DNA of 64,000 nucleotides from Paraburkholderia translucens (GTDB lineage Bacteria; Pseudomonadota; Gammaproteobacteria; Burkholderiales; Burkholderiaceae): positions 558,001-622,000 of the forward strand of contig NZ_JAJITC010000001.1 of assembly GCF_020881035.1 (NCBI RefSeq). Reading direction: 5' to 3'. Shown here piece after piece: positions 16,991 through 53,494 of the stretch. A program made the position numbers and the translations under genes. The first letter of the stretch is position 1. The number at the start of each line of letters is the position of its first letter. Below the pieces are notes generated by a model. The model did not search any database. It was not told where the DNA came from and was given only the letters and a program-made list of their open reading frames with translations.

Positions 16991-18631
16991 TTAGTGGTTA
17001 CCGCCGCCGTGGCCGCCATTGCCGGAGCCACCACCGCCGTAGCCGCCGTGGGAGCCGCCCTTGCCTTCGCCACCACTGTTGCTGGCCGGGCCACTACTGC
17101 TACCGTGGCCGCTGGCGCCACGACCGCTTTCACCATGGCTGCCATCGCCTCGACCGCCGTCGCCATGGCTGCCGTCACCACGACCGCCGTCGCCATGGCC
17201 GCCGTCACCACGGCCGCCGTCACCATGGCCGCTGGCGCCACGACCGCCGTCACCATGGCTGCCATCGCCTCGACCGCCGTCGCCTCGACCGCCGTCACCA
17301 TGACTGCCGTCACCACGGCCGCCGTCACCATGGCTGCCATCGCCTCGACCGCCGTCGCCATGGCTGCCATCGCCTCGACCGCCGTCGCCTCGACCGCCGT
17401 CACCATGACCGCCGTCACCACGGCCGCCGTCACCATGGCCGCTGGCGCCTCGACCGCCGTCACCATGACCGCCGTCACCACGGCCGCCGTCACCATGGCC
17501 GCTGGCGCCTCGACCGCCGTCACCATGGCTGCCATCGCCTCGACCGCCGTCGCCATGGGTGCCATCGCCACGGCCGCCGTCGCCATGGCTACCATCGCCA
17601 CGACCGCCGTCACCATGACTACCATCGCCACGACCGCCGTCACCGTGGCTGCCATCGCCTCGACCGCCGTCACCATGGCTGCCATCGCCTCGACCGCCGT
17701 CACCATGGCTGCCATCGCCTCGGCCGCCGTCACCATGGCTGCCATCGCCTCGGCCGCCGTCACCATGGCTGCCGTCACCATGGCTGCCATCGCCATGGCT
17801 GCCATCGCCACGACCGCCGTCACCATGGCTGCCATCGCCTCGGCCGCCGTCACCATGGCTGCCGTCACCATGGCTGCCGTCGCCATGGCGGCCATCGCCA
17901 CGGCCGCCGTCGCCATGACCGCGATCACCATGACCACCATCGCCATGACCGTGACCGCCATCGCCATCGCCACCATGGCCATGCCCATGACCGCCATCGC
18001 CATCACCACTGTGGCCATGACCATGACCGCCGTCGCCGCCACCATCACCACCGTGGCCATGCCCATGACCGCCGTCGCCGTCACCATCACCACTGTGGCC
18101 ATGACTATGACCGCCGTCGCCGTCACCATCACCACCGTGGCCAAGTCCATGACCGCCGTCGCCGTCGCTATCGCCGCCACCATCGCCACCGTGGCCGTGG
18201 CCCTGCCCATGGCCACCATCCCCGCCGTTATTCCCTCCGCCATCGCCACCGGTACCGCCAGTGCCGCCAGTTCCCGATCCATCGCCACCACTACCAGCAC
18301 CGCCGCTACCATTGTTGCCAAAACCGCTGCTGCCGCCGCCCGCCGACGACCCGGTGGACGACGTCGAACCCGATTTCGCCGCCGCGACGCCGAAGCCGCC
18401 CACCCCAGTCTGGCCGCCTGCTCGCAATGTGCATCCCGGCCCGGCTCCCGGCGGACATACGCCGTGCGCACCCATCTCGGCGGGCATCACCATTTCTGAA
18501 TTCGTTGCCGGCGCCGCGGAACTGACAGAATTCGTCTGCCCACCCGCCATCGCCGCATAAAGACTGACCGCCGCTGCAAAGGCCGCCCGTCGCGTCCCCA
18601 ATGTCCACGCGTCCCCGTTTTGCCTTTTCAT
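16991..18631 (-). CDS. Secreted Gly/Asp/His tandem-repeat protein
   Basis: 546-residue protein. The N-terminus has a basic stretch and a hydrophobic core (AAFAAAVSLYAAMAGG) that looks like a signal peptide. A short Ser/Ala/Gly region includes CPPGAGPGC. Residues from about 130 to 510 are built of five-residue units such as GGRGD, GSHGD, GSHGE and GHGDG, arranged as 15-base DNA repeats. The repeats are rich in Asp and His, so Ca2+ or transition-metal binding is possible, as in RTX-like or His-rich proteins, but no known family is assigned. The other frames across the repeats also stay open, which is a repeat effect. The minus frame is favoured because it starts with a signal peptide and ends before a hairpin. 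Confidence 0.65.
   Translation of the reverse strand: MKRQNGDAWTLGTRRAAFAAAVSLYAAMAGGQTNSVSSAAPATNSEMVMPAEMGAHGVCPPGAGPGCTLRAGGQTGVGGFGVAAAKSGSTSSTGSSAGGGSSGFGNNGSGGAGSGGDGSGTGGTGGTGGDGGGNNGGDGGHGQGHGHGGDGGGDSDGDGGHGLGHGGDGDGDGGHSHGHSGDGDGDGGHGHGHGGDGGGDGGHGHGHSGDGDGGHGHGHGGDGDGGHGHGDGGHGDRGHGDGGRGDGRHGDGSHGDGSHGDGGRGDGSHGDGGRGDGSHGDGSHGDGSHGDGGRGDGSHGDGGRGDGSHGDGGRGDGSHGDGGRGDGSHGDGGRGDGSHGDGGRGDGSHGDGGRGDGTHGDGGRGDGSHGDGGRGASGHGDGGRGDGGHGDGGRGASGHGDGGRGDGGHGDGGRGDGGRGDGSHGDGGRGDGSHGDGGRGDGSHGDGGRGDGGRGDGSHGDGGRGASGHGDGGRGDGGHGDGGRGDGSHGDGGRGDGSHGESGRGASGHGSSSGPASNSGGEGKGGSHGGYGGGGSGNGGHGGGNH
17105..18235. repeat. Imperfect 15-bp tandem repeats inside the repeat-protein gene
   Basis: About 1.1 kb of units close to CACCGTCGCCATGGC/T and variants. 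All are multiples of 15 or 30 bases and stay in frame. Longer blocks of about 60-75 bases also recur almost exactly, for example 17382-17456 against 17442-17516, pointing to recent expansion by recombination or slippage. Copy number probably varies between strains. Confidence 0.85.
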
Positions 18632-27297: not shown

Positions 27298-28170
27298 CTA
27301 GCGCCGCTGCGCCTTCCCCTTGTCGGCCTGCGCGAGTATCTGCGCAGGCGGCACGTCCTGCTCGTGCTCGATGCCATCGGCGCCGACCGGGGCACGATAC
27401 ATCACGAGCGCCCGCTCCGAGTGCGGCGACGGCGCATCTGGCGACTGCTGCCAGTCCGGATTGGGAATCTCGGCGAACACCTGCCGCAGACGCTCGCCCC
27501 ACGTGCGGTGAATCATGTCGAAGTACGCGTTATCGCGGTCGATCGACACGAACCGCGTGACGCGCAGCGCATCCTTCTCGTACACGAGCAGATCGAGCGG
27601 CAACCCCACCGACAGGTTCGAGCGCAGCGTCGAGTCCATCGAGATGAGCGCGGACTTGGCGGCTTCGTCGAGCGGCGTGGACGGCGTCAGCACCCGGTCG
27701 ATGATCGGCTTGCCGTACTTCGACTCGCCGATCTGGAAATACGGATTCACGCTCGACGTCTCGATGAAATTGCCCGCCGCGTAGATCATGAACAGGCGCA
27801 TCCGGTTGCCCGCGATCTGCCCGCCGAGGATGAAGCTGCAATTGAAGTCGACGCCGAACTTCTGCAGCGCCTCGGCGTCGCGCTGATGCACGCGACGCAC
27901 CGCGCTGCCGACCACGCGCGCCGCGTCAGCCATCGTCGGCACGGTCCAAAGCGTGGGCTCGCTGGCACCGGCGGGCTCGGACAGTTCGTGCAGCACCGCC
28001 TGCGTGAGTGAAAGATTGCCGGCGCCAAGCAGCACCAGCAGGCGTTCGCCGGGTTGTTCGAACACCGACATCTTGCGCGCGGTACTGACGTGATCGACGC
28101 CGGCATTGGTACGCGTGTCGGACAGGAATACGAGGCCGTCGTTGACGGCCATCGCTACGCAATAGGTCAT
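27298..28170 (-). CDS. Anbu-type proteasome-like peptidase
   Basis: 290-residue N-terminal-nucleophile hydrolase. The N-terminus is MTYCVAMAVNDGLVFLSDTR. Removal of Met exposes Thr1, with Asp17 (LSDTR) and Lys32 (TARKM) in the positions of the proteasome-type active site. Anbu (ancestral beta subunit) proteins form helical or ring assemblies and are known to sit with genes for transglutaminase-like, alpha-E and ATP-grasp proteins, as here. The C-terminal 60 residues are longer than the minimal family core and look disordered. It ends the leftward gene set, separated from the transglutaminase gene by 200 bases, so it may have its own promoter. The protease role in this system is inferred from family. 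Confidence 0.85.
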   Translation of the reverse strand: MTYCVAMAVNDGLVFLSDTRTNAGVDHVSTARKMSVFEQPGERLLVLLGAGNLSLTQAVLHELSEPAGASEPTLWTVPTMADAARVVGSAVRRVHQRDAEALQKFGVDFNCSFILGGQIAGNRMRLFMIYAAGNFIETSSVNPYFQIGESKYGKPIIDRVLTPSTPLDEAAKSALISMDSTLRSNLSVGLPLDLLVYEKDALRVTRFVSIDRDNAYFDMIHRTWGERLRQVFAEIPNPDWQQSPDAPSPHSERALVMYRAPVGADGIEHEQDVPPAQILAQADKGKAQRR

Positions 28171-28370
28171 GAGGAATCCGCAAAGGGCAAATGGACGGCG
28201 CCAACTATTGTAATGCCGTACACAGGTGCCCCTTATCTGTATTTACGGCGCTTTTCGCAGCCGGTTCGCGGCCGATTCTGAACATTTGCCAGCAATGTCC
28301 AATACCGCCACGCACGGATGGCACAGGCACATCGTCGCGAAACTTTGGGCGCGTTCGCGTTGCAACGCGG

Positions 28371-29171
28371 CTACTGCGAGCTCTGCGTGCTGACCGTCAC
28401 CGCCACGTCCAGCTGCTCTTCGAGCCCGCCGATACGTCGGCCGCGCACCGGCGCCGCCGCTTCGTAGTCGCGGGCGACCGCGAGCCGGCAGTAGATCTCG
28501 CTCGCAAACACGGCATGCGTGACGTCGATCGAAATCCAGCCCTTGCCGGCGAGCCATACGTCGACCCAAGCGTGACTCGCGCCCTGCGGCACGTCGCCCG
28601 GTTCGATATAACCGCTCACGTAGCGCGCCGGCACGCCGCGCGCGCGGCAGCATGCGAGCATCAGATGCGCATGGTCCTGGCACACGCCGTTGCCAAGCGC
28701 GAGCGCCTCGGCCGCCGTGCTCGTGACCGCAGTCACGCCGGGCTGATATTGCACGCGCTGCACGATCTGCTCGCACAGCGTAATCAGGCTCGCCGGGCTT
28801 GCCAGATTCGGCACCGACGCGGCCAGTTCGCGGATCGCGCCGTCGGCTTCGGTCAGGCGAGTCGCGCAGGTGAAATGTTCGAGCGGGATCGGGCCCGGCG
28901 GATCGCGCAGCACGCCGTCGACGAGCGGTATCGTGTCCACCTCGCCCGACACGTGCAGATGGATCTCGTCGTGCGGCTTGTTGATGACGAGCGTATGCAG
29001 CACGTTGCCGTATGCGTCGAGCGTGGCGTCGAGCTTGCCCGGCGCGTCGATGCTCCAGCGCCGCACCGTCTGCGCGGCGCCGCTCGCGGGCGTCAGGCGC
29101 AACTGCTGGATCGAATAGTGAACCGTCGCTTCGTAGCGGTAAGAGGTGTCGTGGCGGATCGTCAGGTCCAT
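28371..29171 (-). CDS. Transglutaminase-like protease-fold protein
   Basis: 266-residue protein of the bacterial transglutaminase-like family (COG1305). It opens with the N-terminal beta domain (LTIRHDTSYRYEATVHYSIQ). The papain-like core has the catalytic Cys in GNGVCQDHAHLMLACCRARG, the His in SHAWVDVWL and the Asp in ISIDVTHA. Members may cleave or cross-link amide bonds. Its stop-side neighbour is Anbu; the alpha-E gene is 12 bases upstream on the same strand, so co-transcription with it is likely. Confidence 0.87.
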   Translation of the reverse strand: MDLTIRHDTSYRYEATVHYSIQQLRLTPASGAAQTVRRWSIDAPGKLDATLDAYGNVLHTLVINKPHDEIHLHVSGEVDTIPLVDGVLRDPPGPIPLEHFTCATRLTEADGAIRELAASVPNLASPASLITLCEQIVQRVQYQPGVTAVTSTAAEALALGNGVCQDHAHLMLACCRARGVPARYVSGYIEPGDVPQGASHAWVDVWLAGKGWISIDVTHAVFASEIYCRLAVARDYEAAAPVRGRRIGGLEEQLDVAVTVSTQSSQ

Positions 29172-29183
29172 GAGAAAACTCCG

Positions 29184-30134
29184 TCAGGCCACTGGCAGCA
29201 TCAGATAGGTGCGCGCGACCAGATTGCCCAGCTCGAACACGCGCGCGAGGAACTGGGTCAGATAGCCGTGCAGACCGCTCTCCAGAATCTGCCGGATGTC
29301 GGCATACAGCAGTTCGGCGCGCAGCTTGCCGGCGAAGCGTTCGCACTGGTTCGAGCCCGAGGTGCGCAGCATCGCGAGATTGGAGCAGACTCCATCGAGC
29401 GAGGCGAGCAGCGAGCGCGGCATCTGCTGATTGAGGACCATGAGCTCGACCACGCGCGCGGGCGTCACGACGTCGCGATACACCTTGCGATAGATCTCGA
29501 GCGCCGATACCGAACCGAGGATCGAGGTCCAGTAATAGAAATCCTCGAGCTGGCGCGCGGCGTCGCGCGAGTTCGGTTCGACATTCGCGAAACGCACGTC
29601 GAGAATCCGCGCGGTGTTGTCGGCACGCTCCAGATACGTGCCTAGCTGCGTGAAGAAGAACGCGTCGTCCTGCAGCGCGGTGCCGATCGTCACGCCACGC
29701 GACAGATGCGAGCGGAATTTGACCCACTCGAACAGCGCGCCTGGATTGCTCGCGGCCTGGCCGCTCGAGAGCCGCTCGTTGAATTCGAGCCACGTGTCAT
29801 TGATGGTTTCCCACCACTCGGTCGTCAGCGTGCCGCGCACCGCGCGAGCGTTTTCGCGGGCGGCCTGCAGGCACGAATGAATGCTCGACGGATTGCTCGC
29901 GTCGGCAACCATGAAATCGAGCACGTGCTCGCGCGTCGGTTCGTCGTAGCGCTGCTCGAAGGCGCTTTCGAGTTCGGAGATGAGCAGCACCGAGCGCTGC
30001 GCGCGGGCCTCCTGTTCGGGCGTCTGCGGCAGCAGTTGCGCCTTCAGGTTGATGTCGAGCATGCGGGCGGTGTTCTCCGCGCGCTCCATGTAGCGGGCCA
30101 TCCAGAAGAGGTGATCGGCGGTTCGGCTAAGCAT
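29184..30134 (-). CDS. Alpha-E domain protein
   Basis: 316-residue all-helical protein of the alpha-E family. It begins with MLSRTADHLFWMARYMERAENTARML, the family hallmark, and repeats the YLERADNTARILDVR pattern halfway. Family members almost always occur with circularly permuted ATP-grasp proteins, from which they may be inseparable partners in a peptide-ligation reaction. Here it lies between the ATP-grasp gene (159 bases upstream) and the transglutaminase gene. No activity is established for the family. Confidence 0.88.
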   Translation of the reverse strand: MLSRTADHLFWMARYMERAENTARMLDINLKAQLLPQTPEQEARAQRSVLLISELESAFEQRYDEPTREHVLDFMVADASNPSSIHSCLQAARENARAVRGTLTTEWWETINDTWLEFNERLSSGQAASNPGALFEWVKFRSHLSRGVTIGTALQDDAFFFTQLGTYLERADNTARILDVRFANVEPNSRDAARQLEDFYYWTSILGSVSALEIYRKVYRDVVTPARVVELMVLNQQMPRSLLASLDGVCSNLAMLRTSGSNQCERFAGKLRAELLYADIRQILESGLHGYLTQFLARVFELGNLVARTYLMLPVA

Positions 30135-30293
30135 GACGGCGTTCCATGGCTGAGATCTGAACGCGCGAGGCCATCGTCAGCGACGAAGGTCCGCGCCGGT
30201 TATCCGTTGAGCGCCAGCGGCGCATCAGGTTGCAAGCGTCGCGCCCTGCTTTGCCCTGTTGCGAGCGAGGCGGGAAACGCGGCGGCAATCGCG

Positions 30294-31703
30294 TCAGTCG
30301 ACCATCCAGGTATCCTTGGTCCCGCCTCCCTGCGATGAATTGACGACGAGCGAGCCCTCCTGCAACGCGACGCGCGTGAGGCCGCCCGCCACCATCGTGG
30401 TGGTCTTGCCCGACAGTACGAACGGCCGCAGGTCGATATGGCGCGGCGCAATACCCGATTCGACGAAGGTCGGACACGCGGACAAGGCCAGCGTGGGCTG
30501 CGCGATATACCCGGCCGGACGCGCGATCAGCCGCTCGCGGAAGGCCTCGATCTCGGCCTTGGTCGACGCTGGGCCGACCAGCATCCCGTAGCCGCCCGCG
30601 CCGTGCACTTCCTTGACCACCAGCTCCGGCAGATGGGCGAGCGTGTAGGCGAGATCGTCGGGCTTGCGGCACTGATAGGTCGGCACGTTGTTCAGAATCG
30701 GCTTTTCGCCGAGATAGAACTCGATCATGTTCGGCACATACGGATAGATCGATTTGTCGTCGGCGATGCCGGTGCCCATTGCGTTCGCGAGCGCGACGCG
30801 CCCAGCGCGATAGGCGGTGAGCAGACCCGGCACGCCAAGCGCCGAGTCGGGGCGGAACGCTAGCGGGTCGAGAAAGTCGTCGTCGACGCGCCGGTAGATC
30901 ACGTCGACGCGCTTCGGCCCCTGCGTGGTGCGCATGAACACGTAGTTGTCGTCGACGAACAGATCCTTGCCTTCGACAAGCTCGACGCCCATCTGCTGCG
31001 CGAGGAACGTATGCTCGAAATAGGCGGAGTTGTACATACCCGGCGTCAGCACGACGACGACCGGATCGTCCACGCCTTCGGGCGCGACCGAGCGCAGCGT
31101 ATCGAGCAGCAGATCGGGATAGTGCGCCACCGGCGCGATGCGGTTCTGCACGAACAGCTCGGGGAAGAGCCGCATCATCATCTTGCGGTTTTCGAGCATG
31201 TACGACACGCCCGACGGCACCCGCAGGTTGTCTTCGAGCACGTAGAACTCGCCTTCGTCGCCGGCGCGCACCACGTCGACGCCCGCGATGTGGGCATACA
31301 CACCGAGCGGCACGTCGACACCCTGCATCTCGGGGCGATACTGCGCATTGGTATAGACCTGGTCAGCCGGCACGATGCCCGCACGCACGATCTTGCGATC
31401 GTGATAGACGTCGTGGATGAACAGGTTGAGCGCCTGCACGCGCTGCCGCAAACCCGCTTCGAGCGTCTGCCATTCGCTGCGCGGAATGATGCGCGGAATC
31501 AGATCGAATGGAATCAGCCGTTCGGTGCCAGACAGGTCCCCGTTCACCGCGAAGGTGATGCCGACACGCCGGAACAGCAGGTCCGCTTCCGCACGCTTGC
31601 GCGCGATCGCTTCATTACCCTGACTGTCCAGCCATCGCTCAAAGCGCGCGTAATGCGGGCGTACGCCATCGTGGTGATGACGCATCTCATCATAGCATCG
31701 CAT
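30294..31703 (-). CDS. Circularly permuted ATP-grasp type 2 protein
   Basis: 469-residue protein of the circularly permuted ATP-grasp family (COG2308). Signatures are VYHDRKIVRAGIVPADQVY, EDNLRVPSGVSYMLENRKMM, LTPGMYNSAYFEHTFLAQQM, ELVEGKDLFVDDNYVFMRT, VIYRRVDDDFLDPLAFRPDS, and the terminal SSQGGGTKDTWMVD. ATP-grasp enzymes of this kind are predicted to form amide bonds by an acyl-phosphate route. I chose the ATG at 31703, with AGGGG about seven bases upstream. First gene of the leftward cluster with alpha-E, transglutaminase and Anbu. Confidence 0.88.
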   Translation of the reverse strand: MRCYDEMRHHHDGVRPHYARFERWLDSQGNEAIARKRAEADLLFRRVGITFAVNGDLSGTERLIPFDLIPRIIPRSEWQTLEAGLRQRVQALNLFIHDVYHDRKIVRAGIVPADQVYTNAQYRPEMQGVDVPLGVYAHIAGVDVVRAGDEGEFYVLEDNLRVPSGVSYMLENRKMMMRLFPELFVQNRIAPVAHYPDLLLDTLRSVAPEGVDDPVVVVLTPGMYNSAYFEHTFLAQQMGVELVEGKDLFVDDNYVFMRTTQGPKRVDVIYRRVDDDFLDPLAFRPDSALGVPGLLTAYRAGRVALANAMGTGIADDKSIYPYVPNMIEFYLGEKPILNNVPTYQCRKPDDLAYTLAHLPELVVKEVHGAGGYGMLVGPASTKAEIEAFRERLIARPAGYIAQPTLALSACPTFVESGIAPRHIDLRPFVLSGKTTTMVAGGLTRVALQEGSLVVNSSQGGGTKDTWMVD

Positions 31704-31979
31704 GTCAGCCCCTGTCTTGTTGTCAAATAGAAGGCGAATGCGCTGCGCATTCGGTACCAGACCTTCGATCAAGCAAGCGCTATGCCATTGAATTTGTCGT
31801 GATAGAGCGTGTTGGCATGCACGCTTGCGGCGCATCCGCCGGGCAGTGTCATGACTGGATCGTACTGCCGTGGATCATGATGCGCCAATCAGGTGCGCAC
31901 GCGCTGTTCGAAAGCGCACTATGTGGCACGCGACTGCTGTTTGCCAATGGTTTCGGCGAGCCCGACGAAGCGTGCGCAT

Positions 31980-45037: not shown

Positions 45038-45934
45038 TCACAACTCCAGCACCGTCACACCCACTTCCATCCGATGCGCGCCGCCGCCAAGAATCGTCCC
45101 GCGCAGCAGCGACACATCGCTGTAATCGCGCCCGATCGCAAGCGTCACATGATCGACATCGGCGAGCACGTCGTTGGTCGGATCGAGATCGATCCAGCCG
45201 CTCGCCGGACAATGCACCGACACCCACGCATGCGAGGCATCCGCGCCAATCAGCCGTGGCTGGCCCGGCGGCGGATCGTTGCGCAGATAGCCGCTCACGT
45301 AGCGCGCGGGCAAACCGAGCGAACGCAAACAGCCGATCATCACCTGCGCGAAATCCTGACACACGCCGCTCTTCAGCTCGAACGCGCGTTCGGCCGGCGT
45401 ATCGAACAGCGTTGCCGACGGCTTGTACGCGAAGTCCTCGTGAATCCGATGCATCAGATCGATCGCGCCCGCGACGAGCGGCCGGCCGCGCGTGAAGCTC
45501 GGCAACGCATAGGCGCGCAGCGCCGGCCGCAGCGTGATATTCGGCGACGCGAAACAATACTCCGCTTCCGGTCGGAACGCGCCGCCCACGCAAAAACGCA
45601 GTGCCTCGGCCACGCTTTCCCAGTCGGGAGTCGCCTCGGCATCGAGGTCGGTCCAACGCGGCGTCAGCGCGACCGTGGTTTCGCTGACGAGCTGCAGGCG
45701 CTCGTGCGGTGTATCGAGCGCGAAGTACAGCACGTCGTTGCCGAACGCGTCGATACGGCTATGCTGATACGACGGCTTCGGCTCGATCCGCTCGCTGCGC
45801 GAGATCACCCGCTGCCACGGGCACGCGAGCGGCCGGATCGTCGCCAGATGCTGCGCTGTTTCGACATACGTCGAGTAATGGTAAGTCGTGCGATGTGAGA
45901 CCGACAGCACGGTCGGCGCCTTCTTCATACCCAT
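45038..45934 (-). CDS. Transglutaminase-like protein (second cluster)
   Basis: 298-residue protein of the bacterial transglutaminase-like family. The N-terminal beta domain has VSHRTTYHYSTYVETAQHL. The catalytic Cys is in LKSGVCQDFAQVMIGCLRSLG, the His in ASHAWVSVHCP and the Asp in WIDLDPTND. It is a paralogue of the protein at 28371-29171. Its gene start overlaps the fused ATP-grasp/alpha-E gene by 10 bases, so it is translationally coupled. Last gene of the leftward operon. Confidence 0.88.
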   Translation of the reverse strand: MGMKKAPTVLSVSHRTTYHYSTYVETAQHLATIRPLACPWQRVISRSERIEPKPSYQHSRIDAFGNDVLYFALDTPHERLQLVSETTVALTPRWTDLDAEATPDWESVAEALRFCVGGAFRPEAEYCFASPNITLRPALRAYALPSFTRGRPLVAGAIDLMHRIHEDFAYKPSATLFDTPAERAFELKSGVCQDFAQVMIGCLRSLGLPARYVSGYLRNDPPPGQPRLIGADASHAWVSVHCPASGWIDLDPTNDVLADVDHVTLAIGRDYSDVSLLRGTILGGGAHRMEVGVTVLEL

Positions 45935-48546
45935 ACCTGCGAGGCGACCGTGGTTGCGTGACTGAAATAGCGCGCGCTGATCTCATGCGCGGCCGCGTTG
46001 GCCAAGCCGCCGATCTGATCGCACAGCGCGATCAGCGTGGCATGCGATCCGTTTTCGTCGACCTCGCACAGCGATTCGAGCGACGGCAGCATCTCGACGG
46101 GCGGCAGCAGCTCCGCAAACGGCCGATGCCGCAGGCTGCCCGCCGCGACGGCGATTTCGTCGAGCTTGTTGCGCAGCCGCTCGTACACGCCATAAATGCC
46201 GCGCGGATTGTGCGGTTCGATCACGAGCAGATCGAGCAGCGCGGGCACTTCGAATCGCCCCGGGTACAGCGATCGATACGTGAGCGTGCTGTCGAACATT
46301 TGCAGCAACAGATCGAAGCCGGCGGGCGTCGCGAGCTGGCCGTTCGCGGCGACGACGCGCATGAACGCGGCCATGCTCGCCACGCGTTCGATATGACGCC
46401 CGACGAACAGCAGCCGCCACGCTTCGTCGCGCGTCATGCGGTCACCCTGCGCGCCGCTGATTGCCGATAGCTGCACCGACAGATGCTCGAGCGCATTCGC
46501 AAGCGTCACGCGATCGTAACGATCGAACGCACTACCGCTATTCGTGCTGCCATTGCCCGCGCCCACGGCCGGCAGCAATACCTGCAACGCGTCTTCAAAG
46601 TCATTGCGCGCCGCGAGGATCATGCGCCAATGATCATTCGACAAGCGGCCACGCACCTCGCCGTTCGCGCGGGCCTGGCAATTCAGGTTCTGGCTGATGC
46701 TCACGCTCCCCGCGCTCCCGCCGAGATTCGCGACGAGCGCGCGCTCGAACGTCTGCGGCGACACCGGCGCGTGCGGCGCCGCCATGTCGCCCGCCTGCAC
46801 GAGGCCGCACCACGTCGCAAGTTCGAGCAGCGTCGCGAACATCGCATCGGCGTCGTTGCCTTCGAGCGAGCCGAGAATCAGCCGCAGCAGCCGCACGTTG
46901 TTTTCCGCGCGCTCGCCGTAGCGGCCCGCCCAGAACAGATTTTCCGCGGCGCGGCTCGACACCGTGCGATGCTTGCGCGTGAGGTCGGCGGGCTGCAGCG
47001 GCGAAGGCAGCAGCGTAAACGTCGAGGTCGGCTGGCTCGACAGCACCCATGTATCGACACTGCTGCCGCCGTACTGCATCGATACCGTGGTCTGCCGCTC
47101 GGCGGCCATGCGCGTGAAGCCGCCCGGCATCACGTGCCAGCCGCCGTTGACGTCGGCGATCGCATAGACGCGCAGCACCGACGCCCGGCCGCCGACCGTG
47201 CCCTCCTCGTAGCGCGGCGTGCAGGAAAAGCGCTGCTCCTGCTGGATCGTGAACGCGTCGGGCACCGCCTCGATGCGCTCGCGCCATGCCGCGAGCGGCT
47301 GCCTGCCGCGCTCGATGCCCGGCGGCGCGTCGCGTCCGGAGACCGGCCAGGTCGGCACGATGAACGCCTCGTCGAGATGCGCGAACGCATGCTCGCGCGC
47401 GGCTTGCTCGCCGCACCACCAGGTCGGCACGCCGGGCAGCAGCAATTCCGCGCCGAGCAAGGCCTCGGCGATTCCCGGCAAGAAACCGTGCAGCGCCGGC
47501 GATTCGGCGAATCCCGAGCCCGGCACGTTCGACACGATCACATTGCCTGCGCGCATCACCTGCAACAGCCCTGGCACGCCGATCGTCGAATCGGCGCGCA
47601 GTTCGACCGGGTCGCAGAACGCGTCGTCGAGACGGCGCAGTACGACGTGCACGCGTTCGAGCCCGGCCAGGGTCTTCAGATAGAGCCTGTCGCCCCGCAC
47701 GGTCAGATCCTTGCCTTCGACGAGCGTGACACCGAGATAGCGCGCAAGGAACACGTGCTCGAAATAAGTTTCGCTATACGGCCCCGGCGTGAGCAGCGCG
47801 ATATGCGGCGACGCGTCGGCGCTTTCACCGTCGCGCATCGTCGCATGGGCGGCCTGCACGTGTGTGGCGATCAGTTGCGAATAGAGCGGCGCGAGGCGGC
47901 TCACGCGCAGCGAGCGGAATGGCTCGGCGAGCAGCGTCGAGATGATCAGGCGGTTCTCGAGCGCGTAGCCGAGGCCGGACGGCGCCTCGGTGCGATGCGC
48001 GATCACGCTCCACTCGCCGCCCGGCGTGCGCGCGAGATCGAGCGCGACGACCTGCAGATACTGGCCACCCGGCGGCGTGAAGCCCTTCACCGAGCGCAGA
48101 TAGCCCGGATGACCGAACACCAGCGCGGGCGGCAGTTGCCCACGTTCGAGCAGGGTCTGCGGTCCGTAGATATCGGCGACGATCGCGTTGAGCAGATGCG
48201 CGCGCTGCGCGACGCCGCGCTCGATTTGCGCCCACTCGGCCTCGCTGATCAGGAACGGCAGCAGGTCGAGCGCCCAGGGCCGCGACTTGCCGTTGTCCGC
48301 GTAGACGTTGTAGCTGATGTCGTTGTCGCGGATCTGCTGCGCGATCGACGCGTGATGGTCCGCGAGCCGCGCGACGCCGCCTTCGCCAAGCAGCGCGAAG
48401 AACTGCCGCCACGGTTCGCGCAGCGCGCCGGAGGCGTCGCGCAACTCGTCCCAATGTCCGTCATGACCCGGCAGCAACCGCAACATGGACGAAGCGTCCG
48501 CCGGCAGCGCGGACGCTTCAAAGGGCAAAGTCGATTGAAAGGCCAA
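45925..48546 (-). CDS. Fused circularly permuted ATP-grasp and alpha-E protein
   Basis: 873-residue fusion of the two proteins that are separate at 29184-31703. The ATP-grasp part, about 1-500, has GLGYALENRLIISTLLAEPF, LLTPGPYSETYFEHVFLARY and VTLVEGKDLTVRGDRLYLK. The alpha-E part begins near residue 525 with RAAENLFWAGRYGERAENNV and repeats HIERVASMAAFM later. The fusion shows that both act in one reaction, probably peptide-bond formation on an unknown target. It lies 29 bases after the large transglutaminase/DUF2126 gene and overlaps the following transglutaminase gene by 10 bases. Confidence 0.9.
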   Translation of the reverse strand: MAFQSTLPFEASALPADASSMLRLLPGHDGHWDELRDASGALREPWRQFFALLGEGGVARLADHHASIAQQIRDNDISYNVYADNGKSRPWALDLLPFLISEAEWAQIERGVAQRAHLLNAIVADIYGPQTLLERGQLPPALVFGHPGYLRSVKGFTPPGGQYLQVVALDLARTPGGEWSVIAHRTEAPSGLGYALENRLIISTLLAEPFRSLRVSRLAPLYSQLIATHVQAAHATMRDGESADASPHIALLTPGPYSETYFEHVFLARYLGVTLVEGKDLTVRGDRLYLKTLAGLERVHVVLRRLDDAFCDPVELRADSTIGVPGLLQVMRAGNVIVSNVPGSGFAESPALHGFLPGIAEALLGAELLLPGVPTWWCGEQAAREHAFAHLDEAFIVPTWPVSGRDAPPGIERGRQPLAAWRERIEAVPDAFTIQQEQRFSCTPRYEEGTVGGRASVLRVYAIADVNGGWHVMPGGFTRMAAERQTTVSMQYGGSSVDTWVLSSQPTSTFTLLPSPLQPADLTRKHRTVSSRAAENLFWAGRYGERAENNVRLLRLILGSLEGNDADAMFATLLELATWCGLVQAGDMAAPHAPVSPQTFERALVANLGGSAGSVSISQNLNCQARANGEVRGRLSNDHWRMILAARNDFEDALQVLLPAVGAGNGSTNSGSAFDRYDRVTLANALEHLSVQLSAISGAQGDRMTRDEAWRLLFVGRHIERVASMAAFMRVVAANGQLATPAGFDLLLQMFDSTLTYRSLYPGRFEVPALLDLLVIEPHNPRGIYGVYERLRNKLDEIAVAAGSLRHRPFAELLPPVEMLPSLESLCEVDENGSHATLIALCDQIGGLANAAAHEISARYFSHATTVASQVWV

Positions 48547-48575
48547 GATCGTGTGGTGTCAGCGATGCATGTTGT

Positions 48576-51500
48576 TCAACTGTGCCGCAAATCGAGCGTG
48601 AACGGAAACTCGAGACTGCGCTGCGGCGTGCCCACGGCGAGCGGCCCCGGCGTATGGCCCGACGCGAAGAAACGCGCGCGCCGCCGGCTTTCCGCCTCGT
48701 AGGCGTTGACCGGGAAGGTCTGATAGTTGCGCCCGCCCGGATGAGCGACATGATACTGGCACCCGCCGAGCGAGCGGCCGCTCCAGGTGTCGACGAGGTC
48801 GAACGTGAGCGGCGCATGCACGCCGATCGTCGGATGCAGCGCCGACGCCTGCGACCACGCGCGAAAACGCACGCCGGCCACGTACTCGCTGACACGGCCG
48901 GTGGGCTGCAACGGCACCGGCACACCGTTGACGCTCAGCACGTGGCGATTGCCGTTCAAGCCCAGCGCACGCACCTCCAGCCGCTCGACCGATGAATCGA
49001 CATAACGCACCGTGCCGCCCGCGGCGCCCTCCTCGCCCATCACGTGCCACGGTTCGAGTGCATTGCGAATCGTCAGATCGATGCCGCTCAGTGTCATCTC
49101 GCCGACGAGCGGAAAGCGGAATTCGAAGTGCGGCGCGAACCACGCGCTGTCGAATGCGAAGCCCGCTTCGCGCAGCTCGGCGAGCACGTCGTCGAAATCC
49201 ATTTTCACGAAGGTGCCGAGCAGGAAGCGGTCGTGCAGCTCCGTGCCCCAACGCGTGAGGCGCTGCGTGTACGGCGTGCGCCAGAATCGCGCGACCAGTG
49301 CGCGCAGCAGCAGTTGCTGCACCAGACTCATGCGTGCATGCGGCGGCATCTCGAAGCCGCGCAGTTCCAGCAGGCCGAGGCGGCCGGCCGGCCCGTCGGG
49401 CGAATAGAGCTTGTCGATGCAGAACTCGGCGCGGTGCGTGTTGCCGGTCACGTCGATCAGGATGTTGCGCAGCGCCCGATCGATCATCCAGGGCGGCAGG
49501 TTGCCGCTGTCGCGGCCGCCGAGCAGATCAACTTGCCGTTGCAGTTCGGCGAGCGCGATTTCAAGTTCGTAGACCTGATCGTTGCGGGCTTCGTCGACAC
49601 GTGGCGCCTGGCTCGTCGGCCCGATGAACAGCCCCGAGAACAGATACGACAGAGACGGATGGTTGTGCCAATACGCGATCAGGCTCGCGAGCAGATCGGG
49701 CCGCCGCAGGAACGGGCTGTCGGCCGGTGTCGCGCCGCCGAGCACGAAGTGATTGCCGCCGCCGGTGCCGGTGTGGCGCCCGTCGAGCATGAATTTCTCG
49801 CTGCTCAGGTAGCTGTGCGCCGCCGACTGGTACAGGTACTCGGTGTGATCGACGAGCTCGTCCCAGTTCGCGGCCGGATGAATGTTGACTTCGATCACGC
49901 CGGGGTCCGGCGTGAGCTGCAGCACTTTCAGGCGCGCGTCGCGAGGCGGCGGATAGCCTTCGAGCACGATCTGCATCTTCAGTTCATCGGCCGTCGCTTC
50001 GACCGCGGCGAGCAGGTCGAGATAATCGTCGAGATCAGTCAGCGGCGGCATGAACACGTGCAGCAGCGTGCGGCCGCTGCCGAACGAATGTGCCTCGGCT
50101 GTGGGGCCTGCCGCGCGTTTCGGGTCGCGCGCCTCGACGCACACCGCCGTGCGCAACGTGTCCTTCGACGACTGCCCACGTGCCGGCGCCGACTCGTCAT
50201 GGCGCGGCGGCGCATATGCGAGCACCCCGCCGTGAGGCATTCCGCTCAGCAGATCGGCGGCCGACAGCGATAGCGCGGCCGCCTGCCGTGCGCTGGCCGC
50301 TTCGTCAGCGATCTGCCGGCCCTCGCGCCCGCCCTCGTACTGAACGCGCAACTGCGCGGCCGTACGCAGCGGCTGCGGCGGCGCGAACGGATCGTGCGCA
50401 TGCTGATACGGATAGTCGGTCTTCGACACCCACGGCAGCGAATCGAGCGGCAGCCGGTAGCCCATCGGCGAATCGCCGGGGATCAGATACATGCGTTCAT
50501 CGCGGAAGAACCAGCGGCCCGTGATCCACGTTGGTGCGATGCCGGGCGCGCCGCGCTCGCGGCCGATCGGCAACACATAGCCCGACGGGCTCGCGAGCCC
50601 CGCGTCGAACACGCGCCGCAGCCGCACGCGTTCGAGTTCGTCGTCGAGGCGCGCGTCGAACGGATCGACGTTGACCGGCAGACGGCGCTCGCGCCACAGG
50701 TAGTACCAGGCGTCTTCGTAGCCGGGCTGAATGCAGTCCGCGTCGAGAGACAGCTTTGCGGCCAGATGCGCGATGAAGCGTTGCGCGTCCCCGGCCGTGT
50801 AGCGGCCCGGCTCGCGTTCGTCGGCGAACAGCGCCGGGTTGTGCCAGCACGGCTCGCCGTCGGCGCGCCAGTACAGCGACATCGCCCAGCGCGGCAGTTG
50901 CTCGCCCGGATACCACTTGCCCTGGCCGGTATGCAGGAAGCCGTTCGCGCCGTAGCGCTGGCGCAGCCGGTCCATCAGCGCGACCGCATAGCCGCGCTTG
51001 GTCGGTCCGAGCGCATCGGTGTTCCATTCGGCGGCGTCGCGATCGCGCACCGACACGAAGGTCGGCTCGCCGCCCATCGTCAGTCGCACATCCATCTCGG
51101 CGAGGTCGTCGTCGACTCGCGCGCCCATCTTCAGCACCTCGCCCCATGCGGCTTCGCTATACGGCTTCGTGACGCGCGGCGACTCCAGCAAGCGTTCGAT
51201 CGACATTTCGTGCTCGAACTCGACCTCGCATTCGTCGACCGCGCCCGAGATCGGCGCCGCGCTGCCCGGCTCCGGCGTACAAGCAACCGGAATATGCCCT
51301 TCGCCCGCGAGCAGCCCCGAGGTCGGATCGAGCCCGATCCAGCCCGCGCCGGGCAGATAGACCTCGCACCACGCGTGCAGGTCGGTGAAGTCGACCTCGG
51401 TGCCGCTCGGGCCGTCGATCGATCTGACGTCGGGCGCAAGCTGTAGCAGATAGCCGGACACGAAGCGCGCGGCGAAGCCGAGTTGCCGCAGCGTCTCCAC

Positions 51501-52061
51501 GAGCAGCCAGCCCGAATCGCGGCACGAGCCCGAGGCGTTGGTCAAGGTCTCCTCTGGCGTCTGCACGCCCGGCTCCATGCGGATCAGATAGCGGACCTCG
51601 CGTTGCAGCCGCTGGTTCAGCGCGACGAGAAAGTTCGCGGTGCCGGCCGGCGTGCGGTCGATGCTCGCGACGAACTCCGCAAAGCGCGGCGTCATCGGCC
51701 GCTTCACGCAGTAAGGCGCGAGCTCGGCCGCCAGTTCCGGCGCGTACTCGAACGGAAACTGCTCCGCCGACGGTTCGAGAAAGAAGTCGAACGGGTTGTA
51801 GACGGCCATTTCGGCGACCAGATCGACACTCACCTTGAACTCGCGCGTCGGCTCGGGAAATACGAGCCGCGCCTGGTAGTTGGCGAACGCGTCCTGCTGC
51901 CAGTTGATAAAGTGCCTCGCGGGCTCGACGCGCATCGAGTACGACAGGATCGGCGTACGACAATGCGGCGCGGGCCGTAGCCGCACGACCTGAGGCGAAA
52001 GCGACACCAGCCTGTCGTAGCGGTAATGAGTAACGTGATGCAACGCGACGCGTATGGACAC
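48576..52061 (-). CDS. Large transglutaminase-like/DUF2126 protein
   Basis: 1161-residue protein. Residues about 1-290 are a transglutaminase-like domain with SIRVALHHVTHYRYDRLVSL, the catalytic Cys in ASGSCRDSGWLLVE, the His in TDLHAWCEVYLP and the Asp in WIGLDPTSG. The remaining 850 residues are the DUF2126 region (VRLTMGGEPTFVSVRDRDAA, GRHTGTGGGNHFVLGGATPA, LRGFEMPPHARMSLVQQLLL). The start is the GTG at 52061, preceded by GAGGAG about eight bases upstream. First gene of the second cluster. The part after residue 300 has no assigned activity, but the strongly conserved GTGGGNH and ELRGFEMPPH motifs suggest an enzyme. Confidence 0.9.
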   Translation of the reverse strand: MSIRVALHHVTHYRYDRLVSLSPQVVRLRPAPHCRTPILSYSMRVEPARHFINWQQDAFANYQARLVFPEPTREFKVSVDLVAEMAVYNPFDFFLEPSAEQFPFEYAPELAAELAPYCVKRPMTPRFAEFVASIDRTPAGTANFLVALNQRLQREVRYLIRMEPGVQTPEETLTNASGSCRDSGWLLVETLRQLGFAARFVSGYLLQLAPDVRSIDGPSGTEVDFTDLHAWCEVYLPGAGWIGLDPTSGLLAGEGHIPVACTPEPGSAAPISGAVDECEVEFEHEMSIERLLESPRVTKPYSEAAWGEVLKMGARVDDDLAEMDVRLTMGGEPTFVSVRDRDAAEWNTDALGPTKRGYAVALMDRLRQRYGANGFLHTGQGKWYPGEQLPRWAMSLYWRADGEPCWHNPALFADEREPGRYTAGDAQRFIAHLAAKLSLDADCIQPGYEDAWYYLWRERRLPVNVDPFDARLDDELERVRLRRVFDAGLASPSGYVLPIGRERGAPGIAPTWITGRWFFRDERMYLIPGDSPMGYRLPLDSLPWVSKTDYPYQHAHDPFAPPQPLRTAAQLRVQYEGGREGRQIADEAASARQAAALSLSAADLLSGMPHGGVLAYAPPRHDESAPARGQSSKDTLRTAVCVEARDPKRAAGPTAEAHSFGSGRTLLHVFMPPLTDLDDYLDLLAAVEATADELKMQIVLEGYPPPRDARLKVLQLTPDPGVIEVNIHPAANWDELVDHTEYLYQSAAHSYLSSEKFMLDGRHTGTGGGNHFVLGGATPADSPFLRRPDLLASLIAYWHNHPSLSYLFSGLFIGPTSQAPRVDEARNDQVYELEIALAELQRQVDLLGGRDSGNLPPWMIDRALRNILIDVTGNTHRAEFCIDKLYSPDGPAGRLGLLELRGFEMPPHARMSLVQQLLLRALVARFWRTPYTQRLTRWGTELHDRFLLGTFVKMDFDDVLAELREAGFAFDSAWFAPHFEFRFPLVGEMTLSGIDLTIRNALEPWHVMGEEGAAGGTVRYVDSSVERLEVRALGLNGNRHVLSVNGVPVPLQPTGRVSEYVAGVRFRAWSQASALHPTIGVHAPLTFDLVDTWSGRSLGGCQYHVAHPGGRNYQTFPVNAYEAESRRRARFFASGHTPGPLAVGTPQRSLEFPFTLDLRHS

Positions 52062-52375
52062 TCCGGACTCCTCGACGAAAGGGGCAGCCCGCCAAAAAAG
52101 CAAGCTCTATGCCGTTGTTGGACAAACTCGAATGAACCGCCTGATGTTGCCTGACCTGCGTGTGCGTTTTGCGTACCGCTCACCTTCCCGCTGGTCCGCG
52201 CCGAAGCATGCACCAAAACGGAGCAGCGCCGTTGCACGAACATGACCGTACTGTGCGTTAAAGCGGTGAGGTCTGGCAATCCCGGCATGAAGATTGCGGC
52301 CCGCTTTCGCCGACTGGCGCGCTGACTACGGCGCTCAACATGACTCGTCACAACACTCATCACGAGGCCCGCCCG
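52062..52375. other. Intergenic promoter region of two divergent genes
   Basis: 314 bases between the DUF2126 gene and the zinc-ribbon metallopeptidase gene. No coding frame seen. It should hold divergent promoters, so the two transcripts may be controlled together. Confidence 0.5.
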
Positions 52376-53494
52376 ATGAAAATCTTTCACTGCAATCGCT
52401 GCGCGCAACTCCTGTTCTATGAGAACGTCCGCTGCGAGCGCTGCGACTCGCTGCTCGGCTATGTGCCTGAACAGCGGGAAATCAGCGCCTTCGAAGACGC
52501 TGGCGACGGCTGCTGGCGCAGCCTGCACCCCGAGGCGAACGGCGCGCTGTTCCGGCAATGCCACAACTACGCGGTCGAGAATGTCTGCAATTGGATGATT
52601 CCCGCCGATTCGCCCGACACGCTGTGCCGGTCCTGCCAGCTGACCCGCACGATTCCGAACCTGAGCGAACCGGAAAACCGGCTCTACTGGTACCGGCTCG
52701 AAGTGGCGAAACGGCGTCTGCTCTACACGCTGGCCGGGCTTGACCTCGACGTGCCATCGCGCGAAGCGGACCCCGAGCACGGTCTCGCCTTCGAATTTCT
52801 CGCCGACGGCAGCGACGGCGAGCGCGTCATGACCGGTCACGACAACGGACTGATCACGCTGAACATCGCCGAGGCCGACGACGCGCATCGCGAGAAGGTC
52901 CGCACCGCGATGGGCGAACCATACCGCACGCTGCTCGGCCACTTCCGCCATGAGACGGGCCACTACTTCTTCAGCCAGCTGATCGAAACCGAGCCGCGCT
53001 GGCTCGAACCGTTTCGCGGGCTGTTCGGCGACGAGCGGGCCGATTACGGCGAAGCGCTCGAAGCCTACTATCGCGAGGGCGCGCCGGCCGACTGGCAGGC
53101 ATCGTACATCAGTGCGTACGCGACGATGCATCCGTGGGAAGACTGGGCGGAGACCTGGGCGCACTACCTGTTGATCGTCGATGTGCTCGATACCTCGACG
53201 TCGTACGGGCTCGCGCTGGTGCCCGACGATCCGCGCGAGCCGACGCTGACCGACCGCACGCCGGTCGAGGATGCGAGCTTCGGCAATCTGATGAAGCGCT
53301 GGTTTCCGCTGACGTACGCGCTGAACAGTCTGAACCGCAGTCTCGGCATGCCCGACGGCTATCCGTTCACGCTCGCCGCGCCGGTGGTCGAGAAGCTGCG
53401 CTTCGTGCATCGCGTGATCGCGGCGGCGGGAGACAGGAGCGCAGGGAAACGCTCGCCATCGGCCCACCAGCAAAGCCCTGCGCAAGCTCAGTAA
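52376..53494 (+). CDS. Zinc-ribbon putative metallopeptidase (COG4307 type)
   Basis: 372-residue protein. The N-terminal zinc ribbon has CNRC (residues 6-9) and CERC (20-23), and a second Cys set (CHNY...CNW, CRSC) follows near 60-85. The catalytic motif HETGH in GHFRHETGHYFFSQLIE fits the HExxH zinc-protease signature, and a later Asp/Glu-rich EALEAYYREG segment could give the third ligand. Proteins of this family occur beside transglutaminase/ATP-grasp clusters, as here, divergent from the DUF2126 gene. I chose the ATG at 52376 (MKIFHC). The end is a low-complexity tail. The role as a protease that trims the cluster's product is a guess. Confidence 0.82.
   Translation: MKIFHCNRCAQLLFYENVRCERCDSLLGYVPEQREISAFEDAGDGCWRSLHPEANGALFRQCHNYAVENVCNWMIPADSPDTLCRSCQLTRTIPNLSEPENRLYWYRLEVAKRRLLYTLAGLDLDVPSREADPEHGLAFEFLADGSDGERVMTGHDNGLITLNIAEADDAHREKVRTAMGEPYRTLLGHFRHETGHYFFSQLIETEPRWLEPFRGLFGDERADYGEALEAYYREGAPADWQASYISAYATMHPWEDWAETWAHYLLIVDVLDTSTSYGLALVPDDPREPTLTDRTPVEDASFGNLMKRWFPLTYALNSLNRSLGMPDGYPFTLAAPVVEKLRFVHRVIAAAGDRSAGKRSPSAHQQSPAQAQ

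Follow-up and report, generated by a model that had tools for sequence, protein, structure and literature searches.

The 64,000-nucleotide stretch of Paraburkholderia translucens DNA analyzed here (the window; positions 558001-622000 of contig 1 in an assembly of 6.5 Mb) carries four minus-strand genes that are the known Anbu operon and not a new system. They stand in the published order, ATP-grasp, alpha-E, transglutaminase and Anbu (PMC6376114; this and the other papers cited were available in part, and what we take from them refers to those parts). Within this known and functionally open system the locus is an ordinary member; its nitrogen-control-like promoter is well conserved in the genus, and it has some lineage-specific changes. 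In window coordinates, the four genes are as follows.

30294..31703, minus strand: CP-ATP-grasp protein (circularly permuted, type 2; homologue of the solved structure 3n6x), from the open reading frame, Pfam and the solved-structure match
29184..30134, minus strand: alpha-E protein, from Pfam; internal duplication of a helical unit
28371..29171, minus strand: transglutaminase-like protein (Bact_transglu_N plus Transglut_core), from Pfam; Cys164-His200-Asp216
27298..28170, minus strand: Anbu, an Ntn-hydrolase of the proteasome-like family, from matches to solved Anbus; Thr1 after Met

The open reading frames bear out the four genes, positions and strand proposed in a first-pass annotation of this DNA, and its gene identities are upheld by Pfam (E-values of 2e-168 for CP_ATPgrasp_2, 5e-93 for Alpha-E, 7e-22 for Transglut_core and 7e-21 for Bact_transglu_N) and by solved structures. 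Five distinct Anbu sequences with solved structures match the Anbu protein (E 1e-93 to 5e-70; one is a designed protein), and the general Pfam Proteasome model gives it 21.7 bits, slightly below the cut-off of 22.4; the ATP-grasp protein is close to 3n6x (E 9e-221 over 466 residues). We set the ATP-grasp start at 31703, not at 31835, because a predicted sigma54 promoter falls within the longer frame. The intergenic gaps had been sized correctly, at 200 bases between the transglutaminase and Anbu genes and 159 bases between the ATP-grasp and alpha-E genes. A Pfam scan found no AAA+ gene among the four operon genes and four neighbors (HU-like, MocR-like, porin and BrkB), and at 14 of the 19 genus loci first fetched the flanks contain HU-like and porin genes.

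The active sites are conserved. The exposed N-terminal threonine proposed for Anbu directly follows the start methionine, and Thr1, Asp17 and Lys32 of the mature protein are invariant both in 20 of 20 aligned Anbus and in all 95 members of a larger set (28 from the genus and 67 others), for which the members from named loci were chosen to align from the first two residues. The Cys-His-Asp triad of the transglutaminase-like protein is likewise intact, Cys164, His200 and Asp216 being invariant in 22 of 22 sequences. Alpha-E consists of an internally duplicated helical unit, each half of which carries the motif ERA(E/D)NTARxLD. By sequence relation, the ATP-grasp protein belongs with ligases of the glutathione and glutathionylspermidine synthetase type, and ligase activity is predicted for it; the fold of an ATP-grasp fusion paralogue (not the operon's own protein) ranks with glutathione and peptide-spermidine synthetases. 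For a Yersinia relative of the ATP-grasp protein, phosphate release from ATP is the only activity reported in the available text of PMC6376114.

Anbu itself shows lineage-specific changes. At the S1-pocket positions described in PMC5666114, the protein has A30 and G48. Position 30 is alanine in 24 and serine in four of the 28 genus Anbus, and phenylalanine or tyrosine in 59 of the 67 others; position 48 is glycine in 20 of the 28 (valine in four, serine in two, cysteine and alanine in one each) and threonine or serine in 59 of the 67. Genus Anbus measure 288-303 residues, compared with 236-254 in 39 of the 67 others, and the C-terminus is about 40-50 residues longer than in solved Anbus.

The four-gene set is conserved far beyond chance, as judged from genus and phylum samples drawn with one genome per species. 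Anbu occurs in 108 and alpha-E in 110 of 117 genus genomes; seven have neither, and every genome with Anbu also has alpha-E. The alpha-E gene shares the strand of Anbu and is found 0.9-1.43 kb upstream of it in 99 of the 108 Anbu-bearing genomes, counting one alpha-E row per genome among the matches listed (G104 has two rows, and in G044 the adjacent one is the second-best). In the remaining nine, alpha-E is located elsewhere: G058, G005 and G025 have an intact trio away from Anbu that keeps its sigma54 site, G086 has the trio about 13 kb from Anbu with its promoter left unscored, the best alpha-E of G049, G079, G024 and G081 is part of a sister-type cluster, and that of G104 has no adjoining ATP-grasp gene. 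Among 299 phylum genomes, 102 carry Anbu and 156 alpha-E; 101 have both, one Anbu alone, 55 alpha-E alone and 142 neither (Fisher 1.6e-37, the genomes not being independent). Of 60 phylum loci fetched, from 59 of the 102 Anbu-bearing genomes, 41 carry the complete set in order on a single strand, 11 have only Anbu and eight are partial. The proposal that these families occur together thus holds, and the scattering in relatives that would have spoken against a unit is confined, in the genus sample, to the nine genomes mentioned. In two of the named loci, L177 and L187, Anbu lies upstream of the ATP-grasp gene, with Anbu matches on both sides in L177; at L042 (4889-6352), ATP-grasp matches occur in two frames near the C-terminus, which may reflect a frameshift or an assembly error in this gene.

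The main regulatory region lies upstream of the ATP-grasp gene, beyond the segment covered by the first-pass annotation, and contains the following predicted elements.

31772..31787, minus strand: predicted sigma54 (-24/-12) promoter TGGCATAGCGCTTGCT, from the pattern match and genus conservation
31818..31834, minus strand: NtrC-like dyad 2, TGCGCC-GCAAG-CGTGCA, 47 bases upstream of the sigma54 site
31881..31897, minus strand: NtrC-like dyad 1, CGCACC-TGATT-GGCGCA, 110 bases upstream of the sigma54 site
31735..31753, minus strand: perfect 19-base palindrome CGAATGCG-CAG-CGCATTCG in the predicted 5' leader, just past the predicted transcription start

The sequence TGGCATAGCGCTTGCT is the sole exact match to the sigma54 pattern in the window and one of 27 genome-wide, compared with five for the reversed pattern. 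A site scoring 19 (maximum 19.5) is kept in 20 of 20 scored Anbu-type sequences of the genus (L123 was too short for scoring), with changed spacer bases in L051 and L052. Dyad matches of at least 9/12 occur in 19 of the 20 genus sequences, which are related and not independent, in each of two windows (one of 6 and one of 15 positions, picked after a shuffle test), versus 8 of 4160 other positions. The palindrome is invariant in 18 of 18 aligned genus sequences and was not seen in the diverged loci L051, L052 and L054; no second exact copy was found in the genome. We also scored 80 named loci, which are the best-scoring matches listed and not a random sample, some of them cut by contig ends. 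A sigma54 score of at least 18 within 200 bases of the ATP-grasp start is reached in 51 of these (0.64 expected), as opposed to 8 of 880 coding windows, 0 of 80 reversed sequences and 1 of 80 on the opposite strand. The site is present in 21 of the 36 named loci with Anbu downstream and in 30 of the 44 without.

Twenty of the 27 genomic sigma54 sites were fetched, and the downstream proteins of ten were scanned with Pfam. Dyad scores of 9, 10 and 9 accompany a PF13433 protein, an SBP_bac_3 protein (both periplasmic binding proteins) and a nitrite-reductase-like oxidoreductase, as read from its domains; dyads before an ABC ATPase and a PQQ enzyme score 8, and those before topoisomerase, SDF, MoxR-like and MFS genes score 7. 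Two sites outside the Pfam scan have dyads scoring 11 and 10.

The first-pass annotation had also found no obvious small substrate gene, and had named the two gaps as candidate spots for regulatory or small coding elements. In genus loci, as estimated from matches, the ATP-grasp/alpha-E gap spans 113-193 and the transglutaminase/Anbu gap 73-265 bases; the exceptions are the diverged L051 and L052 (40/55 and 82/91). Outside the genus, 35 of the 41 four-gene loci have a first gap of at most 72 bases, and 34 have a second gap of at most 99. Among 2278 small frames around 76 full operons (25-160 residues, within 1.5 kb), the largest cluster covers 6 of the 76 loci. Since the gaps are shorter in most other genera and no small-frame cluster exceeds that size, we see no substrate gene in them, nor did we find, within these size and distance limits, a conserved small tag gene linked to the ligase. 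The absence of an obvious small substrate gene thus stands within this range; as for the gaps, the regulatory suggestion gains support in the Anbu gap, and the small coding element does not, none being conserved. The regulatory element is the following.

28207..28212, minus strand: TACAAT, -10-like element of a predicted separate Anbu promoter in the 200-base gap, from conservation

In 29 of the 30 closest genus loci, TACAAT occurs no more than 60 bases from the Anbu start; L051, L052 and L053, which are diverged, lack it at that place, and in L047 it is displaced. It precedes four of the nine separated Anbus (L048, L122, L125 and L126), and the separated Anbu of L041 has in its place a sigma54-like site scoring 18.5 at -181. 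A consensus scan listed no -35 match in the Anbu gap. The conserved TACAAT therefore makes a separate Anbu promoter likely, one predicted from sequence and lacking a recognized -35.

Nitrogen control of such operons is already known in outline, because expression and regulon data have been published for relatives, and these data conflict on rpoN. In Pseudomonas putida, PP_2685-2688 are listed with NtrB/NtrC as putative regulator, and PP_2685 is likened to the 20S proteasome beta subunit (PMC7801951); PP2685, PP2686 and PP2687 rise 11.1-, 6.6- and 7.1-fold under nitrogen versus carbon limitation (PMC3325844). The sister cluster of Burkholderia cenocepacia is among the common sigma54 and NtrC targets (PMC5491218), COG3484 is named among predicted sigma54 targets (PMC12316311), and these domains have been linked to urea metabolism in marine metagenomes (PMC3597751). 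In a literature search of incomplete coverage, we found no description of the promoter architecture, the alpha-E duplication or the S1 change; what is added here concerns mainly the regulatory features of the operon.

We favor, with a probability of roughly 45%, the reading that the known Anbu operon is used as an amide-turnover module in nitrogen starvation. Judging from the conserved motifs and the data on relatives, shortage of nitrogen would bring NtrC to the two upstream dyads and activate sigma54 RNA polymerase, whose transcription would run through the ATP-grasp, alpha-E and transglutaminase genes. The ATP-grasp protein, given its glutathione/peptide-spermidine synthetase fold, might activate a carboxylate and join it to an amine; its probable constant partner is alpha-E, which in the sister cluster forms a fusion with an ATP-grasp. 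The transglutaminase-like cysteine enzyme and Anbu, a threonine amidohydrolase, would move or cut amide bonds; as Anbu has a basal promoter signal of its own, the cutting arm may be less strictly nitrogen-controlled than the making arm. A small peptide or amine conjugate, or a modification at the end of existing proteins, would be a more likely product than a dedicated tag encoded in the genome.

Several findings weigh against this reading or weaken it. The relatedness of the genus promoters and the choice of the dyad windows have been mentioned. The dyads were scored against an assumed NtrC consensus, whose exact pattern, with 0.55 occurrences expected in the window, is not rare; L047 has no dyad, and a score of 9 is likewise reached by a porin promoter of this genome. 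The shuffle test gave p<=0.05 in 13 of 20 genus sequences and in only 2 of 16 loci outside the genus. Of 47 loci in the phylum set, only 10 reach a sigma54 score of at least 18 within 200 bases, compared with 3 of 517 coding windows, which is above chance and far from universal. The site is absent from two (L138 and L140) of the three named Pseudomonas loci with Anbu downstream, and three of ten sister-type ATP-grasp clusters of the genus reach 18 within 350 bases. In P. putida, the wild-type, relA-spoT and rpoN fold changes are 12.6/37.3/14.2 for PP_2686, 11.0/16.6/16.0 for PP_2687 and 14.7/32.8/19.6 for PP_2688 (PMC7801951); induction thus persists at 14-20 fold in the rpoN mutant, as does that of urtA and nasA in the same table, which speaks against sigma54 dependence in that species. 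There, the Anbu gene PP_2685 is hardly induced in the wild type (1.1/4.8/1.5), unlike its 11-fold rise under nitrogen versus carbon limitation (PMC3325844). In the main text of two papers on nitrogen starvation and sigma54 in Paraburkholderia phymatum, none of the terms searched occurs. Finally, the available text of PMC6376114 reports no complex between operon proteins and no Anbu activity on three standard proteasome peptides, and PMC5666114 argues for protein degradation.

Such a degradative role, with Anbu breaking down proteins that are unfolded or in surplus when nitrogen is scarce and the three remaining genes feeding or salvaging the peptides so released, would fit the intact proteasome-like active site, the binding of proteasome inhibitors (PMC5666114) and the nitrogen induction in P. 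putida (PMC7801951, PMC3325844). The lack of an AAA+ gene among the eight genes scanned and the inactivity on the three peptides argue against it, and it leaves unexplained why 101 of the 102 Anbu genomes of the phylum sample have alpha-E; we consider it unlikely. A tagging system, in which the ATP-grasp protein would tag proteins with amino acids or a peptide, and in which Anbu, the transglutaminase or both would remove the tag or degrade the tagged protein, is the reading of the first-pass annotation and also the published ligase-versus-protease hypothesis (as summarized in PMC6376114). Ligase and hydrolase folds do share one operon, and RimK/RimB and the rlo locus provide precedents for an ATP-grasp enzyme paired with a protease (PMC12239564); even so, this version strikes us as improbable.

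The genes could also be co-regulated neighbors only, the ATP-grasp protein and alpha-E forming a working pair and Anbu having a separate job. The nine genus genomes with Anbu apart, four of them with a sister-type best alpha-E, would agree with this, as would the -10-like element before Anbu, the 44 of 80 best named ATP-grasp loci that have no Anbu downstream (some through contig ends) and the 55 of 299 genomes with alpha-E and no Anbu. Against it, Anbu almost never occurs in a genome without alpha-E (0 of 108 in the genus, 1 of 102 in the phylum), and we hold it to be quite unlikely.

Returning to the amide-turnover module, a speculative extension, to which we give little credence, is that ATP-grasp/alpha-E may be a common nitrogen-starvation output of many Proteobacteria, tying a carboxylate to an amine such as a polyamine, while Anbu would act as a cutter that is uncoupled and available constitutively; the remodeled S1 pocket in Paraburkholderia would then mean that the conjugate differs between lineages. 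Structures of Anbu have been solved, and for the search for its substrate the conserved nitrogen-control-like promoter, in easily grown soil bacteria, says when to look, namely in nitrogen starvation; the ligase fold points to amine and peptide conjugates as the place to look; and the lineage-specific S1 pocket tells which proteins to compare.

About 13 kb upstream of the operon, the window contains a sister cluster (45038-53494).

45038-45934, minus strand: transglutaminase
45925-48546, minus strand: ATP-grasp/alpha-E fusion
48576-52103, minus strand: DUF2126 plus transglutaminase
52340-53494: divergent zinc metallopeptidase (Peptidase_Mx with zinc ribbon)

A third system, on contig 10 of the same genome (L034, 6718-9416), consists of ATP-grasp and alpha-E alone; one of the 27 exact sigma54 sites lies 200-340 bases upstream of this pair, depending on the start codon. 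Elsewhere in the window (16991-18631, minus strand), a 546-residue frame contains long GDGGHGDGGRGDGSH-like repeats.

Compared with published Anbu operons (PMC6376114, PMC5666114), the locus has the same four families, order, strand and catalytic residues and likewise no AAA+ ATPase beside it, but it differs in its wider gaps, the -10-like element before Anbu, the replacement of F30/T48 in the S1 pocket by A30/G48 and an Anbu 40-50 residues longer than the solved ones. By its published description, P. putida PP_2685-2688 is alike in combining a 20S-proteasome-beta-like gene with a transglutaminase and in being induced by nitrogen limitation (PMC7801951, PMC3325844), and unlike in that induction there persists in the rpoN mutant (PMC7801951). 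The B. cenocepacia cluster I35_5080-5083 shares ATP-grasp (DUF404/407), alpha-E (DUF403) and transglutaminase and is sigma54- and NtrC-dependent, but has a large transglutaminase protein where Anbu would be (PMC5491218). Among single enzymes, 3n6x, a putative glutathionylspermidine synthase of Methylobacillus flagellatus, is a close homologue of the operon's ATP-grasp, whereas Escherichia coli YgiC and glutathionylspermidine synthetase-amidase show 9-10% identity and come with neither alpha-E nor Anbu. The rlo and rim loci of Pseudomonas resemble the operon in combining an ATP-grasp enzyme with a protease partner (PMC12239564).

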